A stretch of DNA of 64,000 nucleotides from the NCBI RefSeq assembly GCF_000023025.1, contig NC_012997.1, forward strand, positions 4,399,125 to 4,463,124, written 5' to 3'. Positions 37,402 through 44,730 of this stretch are shown one piece after another; position 1 is the stretch's first letter; each line of letters opens with the position of its first letter. Position numbers and translations under genes: made by a program. The notes beneath the pieces were generated by a model, which saw only the letters and a program-made list of their open reading frames with translations, was not told the origin of the DNA and searched no databases. Source of the DNA: Teredinibacter turnerae T7901 (GTDB taxonomy: Bacteria; Pseudomonadota; Gammaproteobacteria; Pseudomonadales; Cellvibrionaceae).

Positions 37402-38325
37402 ATCAATACCACATGTTTTGACGAGAAAGGGCGCGAATTTTAGCGCTCGAATCGCATATAGCCAACGTATTTATTGACGCAGATTGGCTGCGCAACGCGC
37501 TAAATGCAGTAACTAGCGGGAAGAAGGCGGCACGACAGCAGCCAGTGGCCAAGCATAGCGTGCTCGGGTGAAGGCCAGGGCGCTGCCGACCTTATCCCGG
37601 CATAATCAGACGCTGACAGTGCCCAAGAGTTCAGGGTCACATCGAAAAGGCATAGCTCCAGGCTTGGTCACTGGCGCTGCGCGCGAACGGCAGTCGAGCT
37701 AAGCCCGTAAAACCTGATGGCTCACTTTCGCAACGGGTATCGGTCGCGAGCAACACGCTAGATACAAACAGCCTTAAACCACGATAGAAATGCCAGATTG
37801 GAGGATGTTAACCAGAAACCGCCGGGTCGCTAAGAACTCAAACCGCAGGGATTAAACCGATCTACCAACAACTTGGTGAGTTGCCTTGCTGAGAGGGAGT
37901 GAAATATTTGAAGGCCAACGCTGAAGCCTTAGAAAAAAGAAGGGAGCAAAACGCTCCCCAATTATGGCTAGATGAATAAATAACGCTAAAGCGTGAATAA
38001 ATTCTGAACATCCGCTCTACGGCAATCAGAAAATACTTCACACGTCATGGATTATACGTAGGCCTCACTTTTCTACCAACCAATACCGCAATATTCGGAA
38101 GCCTTGTCACATAAATATTTTTTATTCTCTTATTGCCACACCAAAGTGCTATCAATGATTCGTGCTTCCGCAGTATTCGAACCAGCGTTAAACTCATTAC
38201 TTCGTATACAGCAGAAAAATTAATATCCGAAATACATAAATAAGGAAATCTAAATATATAACTCGTTATTTCCCCACTCACCTCAGCACAAGCAAAAAGG
38301 TGTACAGCCTTTTAAAACTAAAAGA
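37402..38325. other. Long gene-poor region between nhaD and the heme-lipoprotein operon
   Basis: About 920 bases. The left two-thirds contain no convincing frame on either strand. A leftward frame at 38045-38281 with a GTG start lacks a ribosome site and was not accepted. A clear leftward terminator sits at 37930-37958, about 370 bases after the last operon gene, so the transcript may carry a long untranslated end or a missed small gene. Confidence 0.45.
37930..37958 (-). terminator. Rho-independent terminator (leftward)
   Basis: Six-bp stem GGGAGC (37942-37947) / GCTCCC (37953-37958) with a 5-base loop. Read leftward it is followed by TTCTTTTTTCT, a classical U-run. It should end the transcript of the two genes at 38326-41306. 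Confidence 0.8.
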
Positions 38326-40062
38326 CTAGGTCTGCTCAAGATATTTTTTCAAAAGCGCAATTTTATCTGGCGACAGGCTACGGGTGAGCGGCATATAAAG
38401 CGTGGTATTGCGATACTCTGGCGAAATGCGTTTTAAAATTTCGCCACCAACAGCATTTATAGTTGCCTCGTCATTGAGAGGAATCCGCTTGGACATCGCA
38501 GGAAAGAGCACATAAAAGAAGCGGAGACATTGTTGGTAAACTTCATCCCAGGCCACCGTATCCGCCTGCAATAAATCCTCGACAGCACCCTCCGAATATT
38601 TACGCAACGAATTAAAGTAAGCTTGGTAACCGTTAACGGTATGGGTAAGCATCATAAATCCATCGACACCCATAATCTGGCCAAAGTTAACCGTGTATGA
38701 CGTTGCTCCGGCAGGCACGTGTATTTCGCTCGGAAAGCTGACAAATTTCCCGTCCGGCAACTCTCCACTGGAGCTGCTGCTCAACGATACAGTAACGCCA
38801 GTGCGCAAGGGTCCACCATACTCAAGAATCAACAGTGAAATTTCGCTTAACGGCGGTGAGGTTTCATTAACGTAGTTATTGCGAAAATCGCTGTAGATAC
38901 GAATCGGCTGCTCTTGAATGTCCAAGCCGTTTTTAGTGCTTCCAATCACCAGAGCGTTATCTGCGAGCTTAGTTACCTGCGCTGGAGTGAGGGGGATATC
39001 ATACAAGCCGCCATAGAGATAATAATCATTTGGCAGGGAAGGACATTCCGCAAATGTTTCACCGCTGATACCTACCGTAATCTTGCCGTAGTCAACATTG
39101 GGCTCTATCGGGCTGGTATTGGCTTGTCCATCCTGACGTATTGCAGCGCCTTCCAGGGCGGAAACCAGATCCAACGACAACAGCGACTTTGTTGCATCAA
39201 CCATTGCCAGCCCTTGTGCCCCGCCCAAACCATTATTGTTGAGTAACCGTCCCGGTGGCGTCGTTGCAGGTTCCCCCTCCAACCATGGGCCAATGGAGCC
39301 TATAATACGTCCGAGAGATGGATTGGCGTCGTTACGATTTTCTGCATAATTTTGCTGCATGGTCGCGCTATCGATTCCGGGGTAAAACTGAAACATTTCG
39401 AATCGAACGACTATACCTTGAGCCCCCGGGGCATTAATTAGATCGTTCAGCAGCGCATCACTGGCATCGTAGCTTACGATATCTGATTTTTTAAACGCTA
39501 GCTGGAAGGTTCCGCTGGCATAAGCCGAGCCAGGAGTCGCGTACGGCGGTTTGACTTTGTTGGAGTCGTACCTCAGCCCCAAGAAACGCGAATAACTTAC
39601 TGCATTGCCCCGCACCAATAGTGCTGGCGAATCACCGTTGCCAATTTGCAAACCACCGGCGAATATTTGGGTGGTGACACTGGATGTTGGATCCAGGTCT
39701 ACCATCACCGGACTACCGTATGGACCATCCCCACTTAGTGGGTCAACACTTCCCAATAAAAACACGTCTAATCCCACCAGCGACCCGCTGGTGCTCACAG
39801 CACCCGGGTGTCCGGAAGAAGAGACCTTATTACTCATTAAACGAAATTGGTGATCACCATAATAATTCCAGCCACCATTGGCAAAATAATCTCCAGTAGG
39901 TGCGCGCAAATATTCAATGATCTGTTCATCTGTTTCAGTAGCCGTTACAGCTGCATCAGCAAGATCGAAAATTTGCGGTGTATATTGCGTATTATTTGCA
40001 GTGTCGACATTGGTACTACCGCCACCCCAGAAATTTATGCGTGGTCCATTGATATAACTCAC
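38326..40062 (-). CDS. Unknown 578-residue protein in operon with CxxCH lipoprotein
   Basis: This protein has no signal peptide and starts MSYINGPRINFWGGGSTNVD. The short N-terminal PRINFWGGG block, then VDTANNT, recalls PRIxFxGxxxxxxxTxNN starts in some bacterial proteins of unknown role. The body is rich in Gly, Ser and beta-type sequence (VDLDPTSS, GNAVSYSRFLG, VEFEMFQFYPG-like), with an Ig-like region near 425-480 (VTVSLSSSSSGELPDGKFVSFP). The C-terminus is helical (MPLTRSLSPDKIALLKKYLE). Its ATG overlaps the stop of the upstream lipoprotein (ATGA). Export is unclear: it may be cytosolic, or exported with its partner. Function unknown. Confidence 0.85.
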   Translation of the reverse strand: MSYINGPRINFWGGGSTNVDTANNTQYTPQIFDLADAAVTATETDEQIIEYLRAPTGDYFANGGWNYYGDHQFRLMSNKVSSSGHPGAVSTSGSLVGLDVFLLGSVDPLSGDGPYGSPVMVDLDPTSSVTTQIFAGGLQIGNGDSPALLVRGNAVSYSRFLGLRYDSNKVKPPYATPGSAYASGTFQLAFKKSDIVSYDASDALLNDLINAPGAQGIVVRFEMFQFYPGIDSATMQQNYAENRNDANPSLGRIIGSIGPWLEGEPATTPPGRLLNNNGLGGAQGLAMVDATKSLLSLDLVSALEGAAIRQDGQANTSPIEPNVDYGKITVGISGETFAECPSLPNDYYLYGGLYDIPLTPAQVTKLADNALVIGSTKNGLDIQEQPIRIYSDFRNNYVNETSPPLSEISLLILEYGGPLRTGVTVSLSSSSSGELPDGKFVSFPSEIHVPAGATSYTVNFGQIMGVDGFMMLTHTVNGYQAYFNSLRKYSEGAVEDLLQADTVAWDEVYQQCLRFFYVLFPAMSKRIPLNDEATINAVGGEILKRISPEYRNTTLYMPLTRSLSPDKIALLKKYLEQT

Positions 40063-41306
40063 TGCGCACCCCCTTGGCTGGCTGATTGAGCAAAGAGAAA
40101 TATAAAACTGTAATTGGATTTAACACTATCGCCAGGTACGCGCGCGGTAGAGTGGCAATCCATACAACTGCTGATCGGTTGGATATAACTCTCCATCGTT
40201 GTATTGGCAACGACGCCCGGCGTAGGGCTTCCTTGCGGATTACCTGGGTCGTTCGGGTCTGTGGGCCACTGAGGAGAAATTAATTGATAGTACTGCAAAG
40301 GCGTATTTTTAACTAAGGCTTGCCACGTCGTGTTTGCCATGACCACGCTTTTGTCCAGCGGTGTCACCCGAGTGATTTGGTTTGGGGTGGTGAACGGTTG
40401 GCCGGAAGTTTTCGGTGATATATTGGGTTCGCAATAGCTACCGCTGCAATTGGGATTGTGATACGACCCGGCACCACCGTTTTTGTCCAGATTATCCAGC
40501 TGCTCAAAAGTAGCCCACAGCCACTGGGGGTAACCCGCCGCTTGCGCAACTATATGAAAGCCAACCAGACCTACGGTGGCCTCGCGTGTACTGCCGGTAG
40601 GGCTACCCTGGTTATCGAAGTTTTCCACTTCCGCAGTCATGCTTATATAGCGACTGGCATCATCACTGTCTGTCAGAATTTTCCAGGCGGCTTTAACTTC
40701 TAAAGAACCCGTTGGAAAGCGAACACTGCTCGCGTTACTGACCACGTCCTTATTGTAGTATTGATTAGTGCGAACATAACCGTACGAGGTTTCATTAACA
40801 GAAATAGCATAGTAAGTCGGATTGCTGTTTTGATCGATAAGCCACCCGCCAACGGCTTGTGCAATACTCTCTTGCACCGGCAAACTGGCATTCGCCTTAG
40901 CCGCGTAATGCAGTAACTTTGCTCCCATTGGACTGTTCCAAGGCCCAGGATCTGCCGCATCCGGCAAAAACAATTCATCGGTGGTTTTATAGCTTTGCCA
41001 CACAGTGTAGCCCGGCGAACCGAGCGGCTTTTTGCAATCCGGCACCCCTCGCTCATGCGCCTTTACCGGCCAGTTCAACGCAATAAACTGCTTCCATGCA
41101 TAGCTGGCAAATGCCGCAGTATCCGCCTGGGGGGCAGGTGGAGCCAAAGGTATATCACACAGCGGCAATACAAGTTCGTTTTCGTTAGAGATGGGTTGGT
41201 CGGTGAGCTCTGTCGATTTGGCATGAGGCGATGGCTCTGGATGCTGCGGCGAGCATGCTAAAAGAGACACCCCACAAAGCGTTGCCACGCTGAGGGATTT
41301 CCACAT
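40059..41306 (-). CDS. Lipoprotein with a single C-terminal CxxCH heme motif
   Basis: A 415-residue lipoprotein (VATLCGVSLLACSPQHPEP; lipid Cys in LLAC). The mature domain has many Trp/Tyr residues (FASYAWKQFIALNWPV, WQSYKTTDELFLPD, YPQWLWATFEQ). One heme c attachment site, C381-M-D-C384-H385, lies only 30 residues from the C-terminus, with no room for a classical cytochrome c fold behind it, so heme ligands must come from the preceding domain. An AAGGA ribosome site precedes the ATG. It is first gene of a two-gene operon with a 4-base overlap. It is probably a surface or periplasmic heme protein; oxidase or electron-transfer roles are guesses. Confidence 0.85.
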   Translation of the reverse strand: MWKSLSVATLCGVSLLACSPQHPEPSPHAKSTELTDQPISNENELVLPLCDIPLAPPAPQADTAAFASYAWKQFIALNWPVKAHERGVPDCKKPLGSPGYTVWQSYKTTDELFLPDAADPGPWNSPMGAKLLHYAAKANASLPVQESIAQAVGGWLIDQNSNPTYYAISVNETSYGYVRTNQYYNKDVVSNASSVRFPTGSLEVKAAWKILTDSDDASRYISMTAEVENFDNQGSPTGSTREATVGLVGFHIVAQAAGYPQWLWATFEQLDNLDKNGGAGSYHNPNCSGSYCEPNISPKTSGQPFTTPNQITRVTPLDKSVVMANTTWQALVKNTPLQYYQLISPQWPTDPNDPGNPQGSPTPGVVANTTMESYIQPISSCMDCHSTARVPGDSVKSNYSFIFLFAQSASQGGAQ

Positions 41307-41603: not shown

Positions 41604-44186
41604 CTAGCGATTCGCGCAAAAACCGACGCTATTATTTTCAGCTCCCGGCTGCAAAATAGCGTTCCACGCAACACCAGAAACGGTAATACTGCCAGCGGAC
41701 TGCGACCATTCACCATTCCATAAGTTGCTTACTGTACCCTCAACCGGAACAGTCACTTGCCAGGTAATTGCCATGCTCGATTGATTCGCAATTAACAGAT
41801 TCGCACAGTATCCCGCGCCCCAATCGTTATTGATAACAACAACGGCATTAATTCCTCCTGCGCCACCGGAGCTAGAACTGCTTGATGAGGAGCTGCTGGA
41901 ACTGGATGAACTACTTGAACTGGATGACGAACTGGTGCTGGAACTATTACTTGATGTAGAGCTTGATGTAGAACTCGATGATGAACTAGAGCTGGAGCTT
42001 GAACTGGACGATGAGCTGGAGCTGCTTGAACTCGAGCTGCTTGAGCTGGAGGTTCCTCCCTGCGGCTCCTGCCCCCAAACCAACTCCCCGCTCGCATCAT
42101 AGAGCGCGACATTATATGCAAGCTCGAATGTATCACTGTTCAAACCAGCAAAGGAAGGATCATTACTAAAATCCCACCCGCCTCTTACATAATCTCCAAC
42201 ATATATTTCCATCACCGCCGATTTTTGTGTATCACCGACGGGCGATATCGTTCCAGAGGTTCCTTCAATTGCGTATATTCCCGGTGACGTTCCCCATTTA
42301 TTAATTGCAATCTGATTTTTATTGGACGAGTCATAGTATGCACTCAACACCAGATTTGCAGGATCATAGCCAGCGATAATTTCGTCAGAAAGGTCGAGAA
42401 AATAACGGAAACTAACGTCGGCAATTTCCTTTGGTGGAAAATTGGATTCGTTAATCATTTGAATATTCAATAACGCACCAGATTGCCGGTCGTCTCCCGA
42501 AGGGTAACCCACCTTGGCTTTCACAAAGGCCTCGGGTATAGAGGTATCAACCGCGGGCGGAAAATCTGCCAGAGGCATTCCGCCATGTATGTCGACTAAG
42601 CCGGCGAGTGCGCCCGTTAAACCGGCATTCATGTCTGTGGCGACTTCGGTCATTGGAAAGTCTGCTCGATCACTCGAATAACTGTCGTCATCTGCAGGAC
42701 CGCCGGCAATCGCACCAAACAAAATATTCCGCGGTATTTCCGGGTCGTTAATATCATTACGACTGCTGCCGTGGGATGAGCGGTGGTGCGCTGCTAACTG
42801 CCAGCTATCCCCAAAGCCAACCATATAGCTTAAATTATTAGGGTTATCCCCCAGAATATAATTCATCTGATTAGTGGCAAAGTCGGCAAGCTCGGATTGG
42901 AAATCTGCTTGCTTCGATTGTTGCACCAAATAATTGCGATGCACAAGCGCCACCATCGAAGCCATCGCAGTAGCCCGCGCAGACGCAAAGCCATCCAAAT
43001 AGATCATCCCTCCCGGTGTGTAGTTTTTATTGTGAAGTAACTCATTTAAATAATTAGTGCAGTGTGCTTCATAGTCATAATAACCGTCGATTCGCTGACT
43101 ATCCGATATCAGTGTGTCTGCTGCATACCCGGAAGTTGCTGCCACTTTTTCCATAAGGTAGTAAACCGCATTGCGCGTGTCATCCCAGGATGGGTACCAA
43201 GCGAAATGACCCGTATTGCCAGCAATATCGTTGTAGCCCGCTTCGGCTTTATGCAGGTAATCCGCATCACCGGTTGCTAAATACAGCCAGCCTGCAGCCC
43301 AGGGAATTTCATCTTTTGCCCCGGATGAAGCGTTGTAATAATTCATCGCATAATTATTGCCTTGATCATCAACTAAGGAATTGGTGTAGCTTCCGGGCGC
43401 GGGATCATTCCCGCCGTGGGTAAAATCCTTGGTTTGGTAGGCGAAACTAAACAATTGCTTGGCATTCTGCAGTAATTCCGCTGCGTAAATACCATCCTGA
43501 GGCTCGTTCACAGCATTTTTTTCAAAAATAAGCGAAGCAATTGTGAGTGCAGCGGCGGTTTGCGCAACCAGGTCTGCACCGGGATTTTCCAACGTAAGCT
43601 TTAACGCTGGCCGATAAATGGTCGCACCGTGAACACGCTTCAATTCCGGTCCTTGGGTTTCTGGTGGAGCCCACAACGAGTGATCGATAATGCCATCACC
43701 AACCTGTGCGTAGAACTCATTCTCGGCAACATGCGCTTTCAAAAAATAATCGCTCACCCAGCGAATATTATCCAGCGCATAAGGTAACTGGCCGCTCTGC
43801 TCGTAGGCATCCCAAAATTCCAGTACTCCCCAGCCAACAACACTGGCCGAGAATGCCATAGGCAAACCAAATTTAACGTGGTCACCAGCATCGTGCCAGC
43901 CTCCTGTGAGGTCAAGGTTTATCCGTTCACCAAATTGATTGTACTGACCATCGTCGAGATACGAGTCCCCACGCCATACGACGCGATTCGGTAAAAATCC
44001 ATTGTGCAGGTTGGAAGCCAGGAAATTGTTGTCCGCATCCGGCAACGGGCCGGATCGTTGCGCCTCGTAAAAATACAGGGATTTCTGTAAGGCTTCTGCA
44101 AAATTTTTATTATCGTCTGCTGCACAGACCGACAGTGAATTGAGCGCGACGATCATAGAAACACTAAACGCCAGTTTTCGTGACAT
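41604..44186 (-). CDS. GH9-CBM3c-polySer-CBM2 cellulase
   Basis: An 860-residue secreted cellulase. Residues 1-22 are a signal peptide. About 28-540 is the GH9 barrel with DAGD at 99-102 (WHDAGDHVKFG), AAHHRSSHGS and the acid E514 in TEVATDMNAG. About 562-708 is a CBM3c-like module (IADVSFRYFLDLSDEI, YDASGELVWGQEP), matching the C-terminal module that makes clostridial GH9 enzymes processive. About 711-773 is a poly-Ser linker, and 774-860 a CBM2 with paired cysteines (GYCANL, VGFC) and exposed Trp. The start 44186 (MSRKLAFS, CTGGAGAATCTT upstream) is chosen over the longer frame at 44210. Leftward, single gene. Confidence 0.94.
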   Translation of the reverse strand: MSRKLAFSVSMIVALNSLSVCAADDNKNFAEALQKSLYFYEAQRSGPLPDADNNFLASNLHNGFLPNRVVWRGDSYLDDGQYNQFGERINLDLTGGWHDAGDHVKFGLPMAFSASVVGWGVLEFWDAYEQSGQLPYALDNIRWVSDYFLKAHVAENEFYAQVGDGIIDHSLWAPPETQGPELKRVHGATIYRPALKLTLENPGADLVAQTAAALTIASLIFEKNAVNEPQDGIYAAELLQNAKQLFSFAYQTKDFTHGGNDPAPGSYTNSLVDDQGNNYAMNYYNASSGAKDEIPWAAGWLYLATGDADYLHKAEAGYNDIAGNTGHFAWYPSWDDTRNAVYYLMEKVAATSGYAADTLISDSQRIDGYYDYEAHCTNYLNELLHNKNYTPGGMIYLDGFASARATAMASMVALVHRNYLVQQSKQADFQSELADFATNQMNYILGDNPNNLSYMVGFGDSWQLAAHHRSSHGSSRNDINDPEIPRNILFGAIAGGPADDDSYSSDRADFPMTEVATDMNAGLTGALAGLVDIHGGMPLADFPPAVDTSIPEAFVKAKVGYPSGDDRQSGALLNIQMINESNFPPKEIADVSFRYFLDLSDEIIAGYDPANLVLSAYYDSSNKNQIAINKWGTSPGIYAIEGTSGTISPVGDTQKSAVMEIYVGDYVRGGWDFSNDPSFAGLNSDTFELAYNVALYDASGELVWGQEPQGGTSSSSSSSSSSSSSSSSSSSSSSSSSSSTSSSTSSNSSSTSSSSSSSSSSSSSSSSSSSSSSGGAGGINAVVVINNDWGAGYCANLLIANQSSMAITWQVTVPVEGTVSNLWNGEWSQSAGSITVSGVAWNAILQPGAENNSVGFCANR
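41868..42055. repeat. Degenerate serine-codon repeats of the GH9 linker
   Basis: About 190 bases encode the poly-Ser linker joining the CBM3c and CBM2 modules. Plus-strand GAACT/GAGCT/GATGA repeats resemble those of the GH6 linker at 19766-20117. Only a few Thr and Asn codons interrupt the run. Confidence 0.85.
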
Positions 44187-44730
44187 AAGATTCTCCAGAA
44201 TGGGCGCCACCTGCGTTCAGCCAGACGCAGATGGGCGGCATATCAGATATGATAATTTTGAACTATGTGCCTGCAATGAACTTGCTATTTTTATTATCTT
44301 CGCAAAAGCGAACACTACTCATAGGCGGCTTTTGCGAATCGCAAATTAAAGCTTTTCCTCAACAAAGTAAAAAGCAAAAATTTTATTTCCCGAACCAACG
44401 CGAACTTTTATTTGATTTCGATTAACATAAAACGCGATATATCAACCAGCGTGCCTTACACCTGCACACCAACCCACTCCCACACACTCAACCGTTATTT
44501 TTCTGCGAATAAACTTGAATAAAGTTAGCGAAGGCACACATCACCCAATTGAATATTTCCAACCTGCTTCACCTAACAGAACGAATCACACTTCAAATTT
44601 TTCATCACCAGGTTAATTTTACCCATCGCACAAACTTACACATATTTACCTACGGATTTCACAAGGATGTCACACCCCTGTCATTAATTGGCTGAATACT
44701 CGACGGCCTAATTATATGTTGGGGGTTGGT
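44187..44730. other. Divergent A+T-rich promoter region, GH9 / PhoD
   Basis: About 540 bases, rich in A and T, between two divergent genes. No operator could be named. An ATG at 44716 in frame with phoD lacks a ribosome site. A possible regulatory palindrome CGGCATATCAGATATG at about 44235-44250 was noticed but not tested. Confidence 0.35.

Follow-up and report, generated by a model that had tools for sequence, protein, structure and literature searches.

What do two overlapping genes on the minus strand of Teredinibacter turnerae T7901 encode, one specifying an apparently exported protein with a single heme c motif and the other a larger partner, and do their products act together? The window analyzed here is a stretch of 64,000 nucleotides (positions 4,399,125 to 4,463,124 of NC_012997.1) from a genome of 5.19 Mb on a single contig; positions below follow the numbering of the window. 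The downstream gene (gene 2) is, with good support, the N-terminal module of the VioB/RebD/StaD family, and the upstream gene (gene 1) is, with moderate support, a distant and enlarged relative of the cytochrome P460/c'-beta superfamily. The conserved context of the pair is the ebo metabolite-export cluster. An earlier reading of this DNA from its letters (the original prediction) had recognized neither family. Both can now be placed, and its suggestion of a heme protein, which has strong support at the sequence level, is sharpened to a putative P460-type protein in which the position of the cross-link lysine is occupied.

40059-41306, minus strand: gene 1, predicted exported single-heme c protein, 415 residues, ATG start (open reading frame, AlphaFold2 model, P460/c'-beta matches, profile match)
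38326-40062, minus strand: gene 2, stand-alone VioB/RebD/StaD N-terminal module, 578 residues (TIGR04492, hhalign, AlphaFold2)
40059-40062, no strand assigned: overlap of the gene 1 stop and gene 2 start, 4 bases, GTGA (sequence; spacing in relatives)

A check of the open reading frames returned the two genes at the sizes and places originally proposed. The overlap, however, had been read as ATGA; it is GTGA, since gene 2 starts with GTG (its product begins MSYINGPRINFWGGG in the translated reading frame). The pair is more than a chance arrangement, because both reading frames are retained side by side in four of eight same-genus genomes and in 50 other loci. In a scan of genome contigs made with gene 2 alone, which gave 50 loci, a gene 1 homologue lies directly upstream of gene 2 in every one (frameshifts are present in L083 and L084), so that the adjacency pointed out at the start is a conserved one. 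The spacing is between -4 and +4 bases in 46 of the 50 loci, and the 4-base overlap itself recurs in relatives (L040 and L085, for example). From this arrangement, the two genes appear to be translationally coupled.

Gene 2 has no match in Pfam. The NCBIfam VioB model TIGR04492 matches it over model residues 72-582 of 1003 with 50.6 bits, below the equivalog cutoff of 1250 bits, and also matches 20 of 25 aligned gene 2 relatives. By hhalign, gene 2 aligns collinearly over its whole length with residues 1-648 of a complete VioB-family protein from Pseudonocardia (probability 98.9, E 1.4e-17), whose gene neighbors encode an amine-oxidase-family flavoenzyme, a monooxygenase and a P450. The Pseudonocardia protein goes on into a PF12902 ferritin-like domain at residues 678-919, and gene 2 ends before this point. 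Compared with the VioB, RebD and StaD proteins (iminophenyl-pyruvate dimer and chromopyrrolic acid synthases), gene 2 is collinear with the first ~580-650 residues and has in common with them the MSxxxxPRxxF motif at its N-terminus, the helical segment at its C-terminus and the YMPxxRxL block. It differs from them in its model score, far below the cutoff, and in having no PF12902 domain, and a gene for an exported heme c protein adjoins it instead. PF12902 is absent from the entire host genome as well, and a split VioB with its ferritin-like partner encoded at a distance was thereby rejected for this genome. In Azospirillum and Mycetohabitans the N-terminal module is a gene of its own, and a second gene, for a ferritin-like protein, comes immediately after it. 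The module is thus fused in Pseudonocardia, split in these two genera and alone in gene 2, and we therefore regard it as a unit that occurs fused to, beside or without the ferritin-like domain. A separate observation concerns one same-genus genome without the orthologous pair (G007), which carries a distant VioB-N-like gene at C25:9066-10775 (E 3e-48).

The AlphaFold2 model of gene 2 (predicted local distance difference test score 88.7, predicted template modeling score [pTM] 0.90) has a beta-rich N-terminal region followed by two further parts:

38587-38910, minus strand: immunoglobulin-like beta-sandwich of gene 2, residues 385-492 (best Z 10.2, root-mean-square deviation [rmsd] 2.4, 93 residues)
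38332-38580, minus strand: C-terminal helical segment of gene 2, residues 495-577 (AlphaFold2; also found in full-length VioB-family proteins right before the ferritin-like domain)

The whole model found no match among solved structures beyond the immunoglobulin-like part; LodA-type folds are not among the structural matches listed for it, a listing that excludes nothing. The conserved polar columns in the 25 relatives are mainly Arg, Asn, Asp, Gln, Glu, Trp and Tyr, the best His column reaches 19/25, and no Cys column exceeds 13/25. As no His or Cys is strictly conserved, gene 2 presumably has no heme or metal site of its own; more probably it binds a substrate or acts as a scaffold. No signal peptide is evident in gene 2, as originally described, or in its relatives (signal peptides were judged by eye throughout, in the two genes, their relatives and the partner enzymes discussed below).

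Four features of gene 1 bear on its identity:

41253-41306, minus strand: putative signal peptide with a lipobox-like LLAC, residues 1-18 (judged by eye)
40152-40166, minus strand: CxxCH heme c attachment motif, C381-M-D-C384-H385 (sequence; 124/124 aligned relatives)
40692-40694, minus strand: K205 (AAA), aligned with the position of the P460 heme-cross-linking lysine (127/127 aligned relatives; 6w6n compared with 6amg; hhalign)
40554-40556, minus strand: H251 (CAT), candidate distal-pocket residue or sixth ligand (127/127 aligned relatives; motif only)

The N-terminus of gene 1, VSLLAC, resembles a lipobox and is common to the Cellvibrio relatives. In the Pseudomonas orthologues the N-terminus resembles an ordinary signal peptide and has no lipobox, so export looks conserved but lipidation does not; the protein had been called a lipoprotein, and of that description only the export seems to hold across relatives. 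The CxxCH motif (codons TGT ATG GAT TGC CAC on the minus strand) lies at residues 381-385, 30 residues before the C-terminus, just where it had been reported. The idea of a single heme c had been made to depend on conservation of this motif, and all 124 aligned relatives keep it, as a single motif near the C-terminus. There is therefore strong support at the level of the alignment for one covalent heme c, which would be attached here. Besides the CxxCH histidine, H251 is the sole invariant His of gene 1. A methionine was considered as the sixth heme ligand and rejected, as no Met column apart from the start codon is invariant.

The fold of gene 1 is not apparent from routine searches. Searches of Pfam (at E up to 10), NCBIfam and PADLOC returned nothing but a spurious pilin fragment, and sequence searches of Protein Data Bank (PDB) chains, profiles included, gave nothing meaningful for gene 1 or gene 2. 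An AlphaFold2 model built from the gene 1 proteins of the 50 loci (pTM 0.77) is beta-rich, and upon realignment of this model to PDB chains the best 17 entries were all members of the P460/c'-beta superfamily, with Z of 5.9-7.1, as against 3.5 for the next, unrelated entry. The match to 7ead has Z 7.1 and rmsd 3.9 over 127 of 135 residues, and that to 9hrk has Z 6.7. The relation surfaced only upon structural realignment, not in a Foldseek search. No classical cytochrome c is among the structural matches listed, which does not exclude a class I fold. It had been remarked at the outset that so late a CxxCH would need a pocket from the preceding domain, and this agrees with the predicted fold, as a late CxxCH is normal in P460/c'-beta proteins.

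Because the Z values alone are modest, we sought independent sequence evidence for the relationship. A narrow gene 1 alignment compared with P460 by hhalign aligned the CxxCH alone (probability 15), and a broader alignment was needed. When 47 diverse gene 1 homologues were compared with 16 genuine P460-family proteins, with the CxxCH region removed, the top profile alignment paired gene 1 FPTGSLEVKAAWK with P460 FPDGTILVKxAWK at a score of 31.35. None of 200 column shuffles reached this score (maximum 22.0), and the reversed profile and the unrelated gene 2 gave 11.2 and 20.7, respectively. The lysine of this motif, aligned with K205, is Lys in the wild-type structure 6amg and Leu in the K106L variant 6w6n; K106 is the heme cross-link residue of cytochrome P460 (PMC11928373). 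K205 thus aligns with the cross-link position, and a similar link to the heme may form in gene 1. By motif, H251 corresponds to the distal residue of P460, Ala/Glu131 (G-hydrophobic-E/A-x-x-V-K in P460, G-hydrophobic-H-x-x-x-K here), which is only suggestive of a role in the distal pocket.

Gene 1 shares with the P460/c'-beta proteins (PF16694; 6amg, 6hiu, 2je2, 7ead) a predicted beta-sheet fold, a CxxCH near the C-terminus with a predicted covalent heme c, export, and the FPxGxxxxK motif including the position of the cross-link lysine. It differs in its size, 415 residues with large insertions as against about 135-196 in the solved, usually dimeric members, in having an invariant His at the suspected distal position, and in its operon partners, which are natural-product or amino-acid/alcohol oxidoreductases and not enzymes of nitrogen metabolism. 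As the PF16694 model fails to detect it, we call gene 1 a distant relative of the superfamily and not a PF16694 member.

The neighborhood of the pair gives some indication of its role. EboE is encoded on the same stretch in 43 of the 50 loci. In Pseudomonas and its relatives the genes run from EboA through a TatD-type Ebo hydrolase and EboE to a nucleotide pyrophosphatase (EboF-type); after these come a paralogous pair (g1b and a VioB-N-like g2b of ~800 residues), an exported-looking protein of ~320 residues, gene 1, gene 2 and a strictosidine-synthase/SMP-30-like propeller. Two ebo-linked loci contain both versions of the pairing: that on the Gloeothece plasmid Cy782201 (L027:3621-14004) has a VioB-N with a ferritin-like gene and a VioB-N with a P460-like heme protein, and in Nitrospirillum the gene 1-gene 2 pair and an N-module with a ferritin-like gene stand side by side. 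The host genome has a complete ebo cluster at about C1:4187.8-4194.5 kb, and in Gilvimarinus pair and ebo are likewise both present and unlinked. Among 58 relatives, all four pair-bearing genomes have ebo, which 16 of the 58 possess (p = 0.004, for genomes that are not independent by descent). The ~320-residue protein (L042:7671-8708 and orthologues), which lies between both cytochrome/VioB-N pairs, is conserved, has a signal-peptide-like N-terminus and has no Pfam match.

Ebo exports the scytonemin monomer, which then undergoes oxidative dimerization in the periplasm (PMC6282210); this is the system of Nostoc punctiforme. According to the same paper, the EDB cluster of Pseudomonas fluorescens NZI7 includes a full ebo cluster, and a review reports that E. 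coli expressing EDB converts tryptophan to indoles repellent to C. elegans (PMC9655573, citing Zhou et al. 2022). The likeness of our pair to these systems lies in its linkage to ebo in relatives and in the full ebo cluster of the host; the host pair is not part of its ebo cluster. The published ebo and EDB accounts consulted describe no function for the non-ebo pair.

VioB, RebD and StaD are enzymes that oxidatively couple aromatic imines. We consider that there is about an even chance that the two proteins form an oxidative module, in which a VioB N-module and a P460-type heme protein act on an ebo-linked metabolite. The N-module would bind the substrate, or serve as a scaffold, and a separate redox unit would perform the chemistry. 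In other VioB-type members this unit would be the ferritin-like domain, fused or separate; here it would be gene 1, an exported heme c protein, probably anchored in the membrane, that has an enlarged P460/c'-beta fold and keeps K205 and H251. The substrate might be an aromatic metabolite, perhaps derived from tryptophan, that is handled by ebo export and that the pair oxidizes or couples oxidatively. Gene 2 would either leave the cytoplasm by another route and form a complex with gene 1, or act in sequence with it across the membrane with Ebo between them, as in scytonemin synthesis.

Several observations weigh against this reading. Its weakest step is location: gene 1 is apparently exported, gene 2 and its relatives have no evident signal peptide, and the two may never meet. 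The fold call for gene 1 depends on VIA-align Z values of about 6-7, below 8, which may reflect just a common arrangement, and on a model of medium confidence. PF16694 matches neither gene 1 (E up to 10) nor anything else in the host genome, and Foldseek with the gene 1 model found no significant match in the PDB or in viral models. The profile match to P460 spans just a short segment around K205, and the segment around H251, put to the same profile test, did not beat the shuffles. As for ebo, the host pair lies ~245 kb away from it, the co-occurrence of pair and ebo within the genus (4/4, with ebo in 6/8) is not significant (p about 0.21), and a metagenome-assembled genome from the Sphingomonadales has the pair with no EboE found. 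Finally, to our knowledge no substrate or product is known for the gene 1-gene 2 pair in any organism.

The alternative that survives best drops any contact between the two proteins: gene 2 would act on a precursor in the cytoplasm, Ebo would move the product, and gene 1 would finish the oxidation in the periplasm. The signal peptide on gene 1 and none on gene 2, the ebo linkage, and the precedent of scytonemin, where cytoplasmic synthesis is followed by ebo export and periplasmic dimerization (PMC6282210), are all as such a pathway would have them. We nevertheless think it rather unlikely, as the tight coupling of the genes suggests a complex, gene 2 lacks the ferritin-like domain, and the same cytochrome family also pairs with other signal-less enzymes where no ebo is seen nearby.

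These other pairings are the basis of a further alternative. Distant gene 1 homologues adjoin genes for LodA-type quinoproteins, for glucose-methanol-choline (GMC) oxidoreductases with a small subunit, and for a pyrroloquinoline quinone (PQQ)-type propeller (L037:2279-6968, with a flavoprotein gene alongside the LodA-type gene; L038:6239-9729; L034:3697-7635; L121:3939-7670; L032:5905-9746; L035:6461-9700). On the Bradyrhizobium plasmid pBb323S2c (L031:5887-12486), one adjoins a 915-residue protein combining a BNR/YCF48-like propeller with PF12902, followed by a LodA_N protein. By eye, none of the partner enzymes inspected has an evident signal peptide and the heme proteins do, a pattern counted in a handful of loci; other homologues have no LodA, GMC or PQQ-type neighbor. 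The LodA/GoxA, GMC and PQQ systems thus resemble our pair in that some place a protein of the gene 1 family beside a signal-less enzyme, but their enzyme folds are unrelated to gene 2. A survey of LodA proteins (PMC4417212) does not contain the word "cytochrome" and mentions no cytochrome neighbor. More generally, a literature search, confined to a collection that lacks most subscription journals, turned up no account of this P460-like branch or of how it is paired.

Such neighbors would suit a gene 1 that is a plain electron-transfer cytochrome, or one handling peroxide or nitric oxide, that takes electrons from the oxidoreductase next to it or protects it; gene 2 would in that case be an oxidoreductase in its own right, of unknown cofactor. 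Peroxidase-like activity does occur in a c'-beta protein that lacks the lysine (PMC11928373). This alternative seems to us unlikely, as none of the residues in gene 2 that could hold a cofactor is strictly conserved, a simple electron carrier would not be expected to keep a lysine invariant at the cross-link position, and the potentials of P460 are very low, between -340 and -424 mV (PMC11928373). Oxidation of an extracellular polymer, as originally proposed from a GH9-type cellulase gene with a long poly-Ser linker that lies ~300 bases directly upstream of gene 1 on the same strand (41604-44210, minus strand), is very improbable and was rejected, since this neighbor is kept solely in the closest relative (G004) and not in G005, G006, Gilvimarinus or Pseudomonas, and gene 2 belongs to the VioB family.

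The reaction for which cytochromes P460 are known is the oxidation of hydroxylamine. P460 chemistry would be extended into specialized metabolism by a widespread branch of enlarged proteins in which the cross-link lysine is kept and the partners are biosynthetic and amino-acid oxidases. The exchange of redox units, in which the VioB N-module is joined by either a ferritin-like domain or a P460-type heme protein, would offer a handle on the role of the N-terminal half of VioB, RebD and StaD. It would also single out, among the non-ebo genes of Pseudomonas EDB-type clusters, candidates for oxidative enzymes; one of these clusters makes nematode repellents. A broader speculation, which we hold to be doubtful, is that there is a large P460 branch outside nitrogen metabolism with a lysine-cross-linked heme, serving as an interchangeable periplasmic redox partner of several unrelated, signal-less enzyme classes (VioB-N modules and LodA-type, GMC and PQQ enzymes) and, in the VioB case, replacing the ferritin-like half of a natural-product enzyme.

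One further feature lies downstream of the pair:

37931-37959, minus strand: terminator-like hairpin and U-run, predicted transcript end (hairpin search, folding z)

The hairpin, at 37959-37941 on the minus strand, has 8 pairs and is followed by TCTTTTTTCT, 367 bases past the gene 2 stop, which agrees with the U-run terminator originally called at about 370 bases. Its folding z of -1.88 gives modest support, but sites of the same class are no commoner in the region than chance predicts (6 against 8.7 expected), so that what had been described as a clear terminator is a plausible one, not proven. Rfam gave no match in the region. Apart from the enzyme pairings described above, a gene 1 homologue in three loci adjoins a second, more divergent CxxCH protein of ~450 residues, near a nucleoside-hydrolase-like gene (L036:5663-8499, L126:5000-7770, L138:2758-6750).

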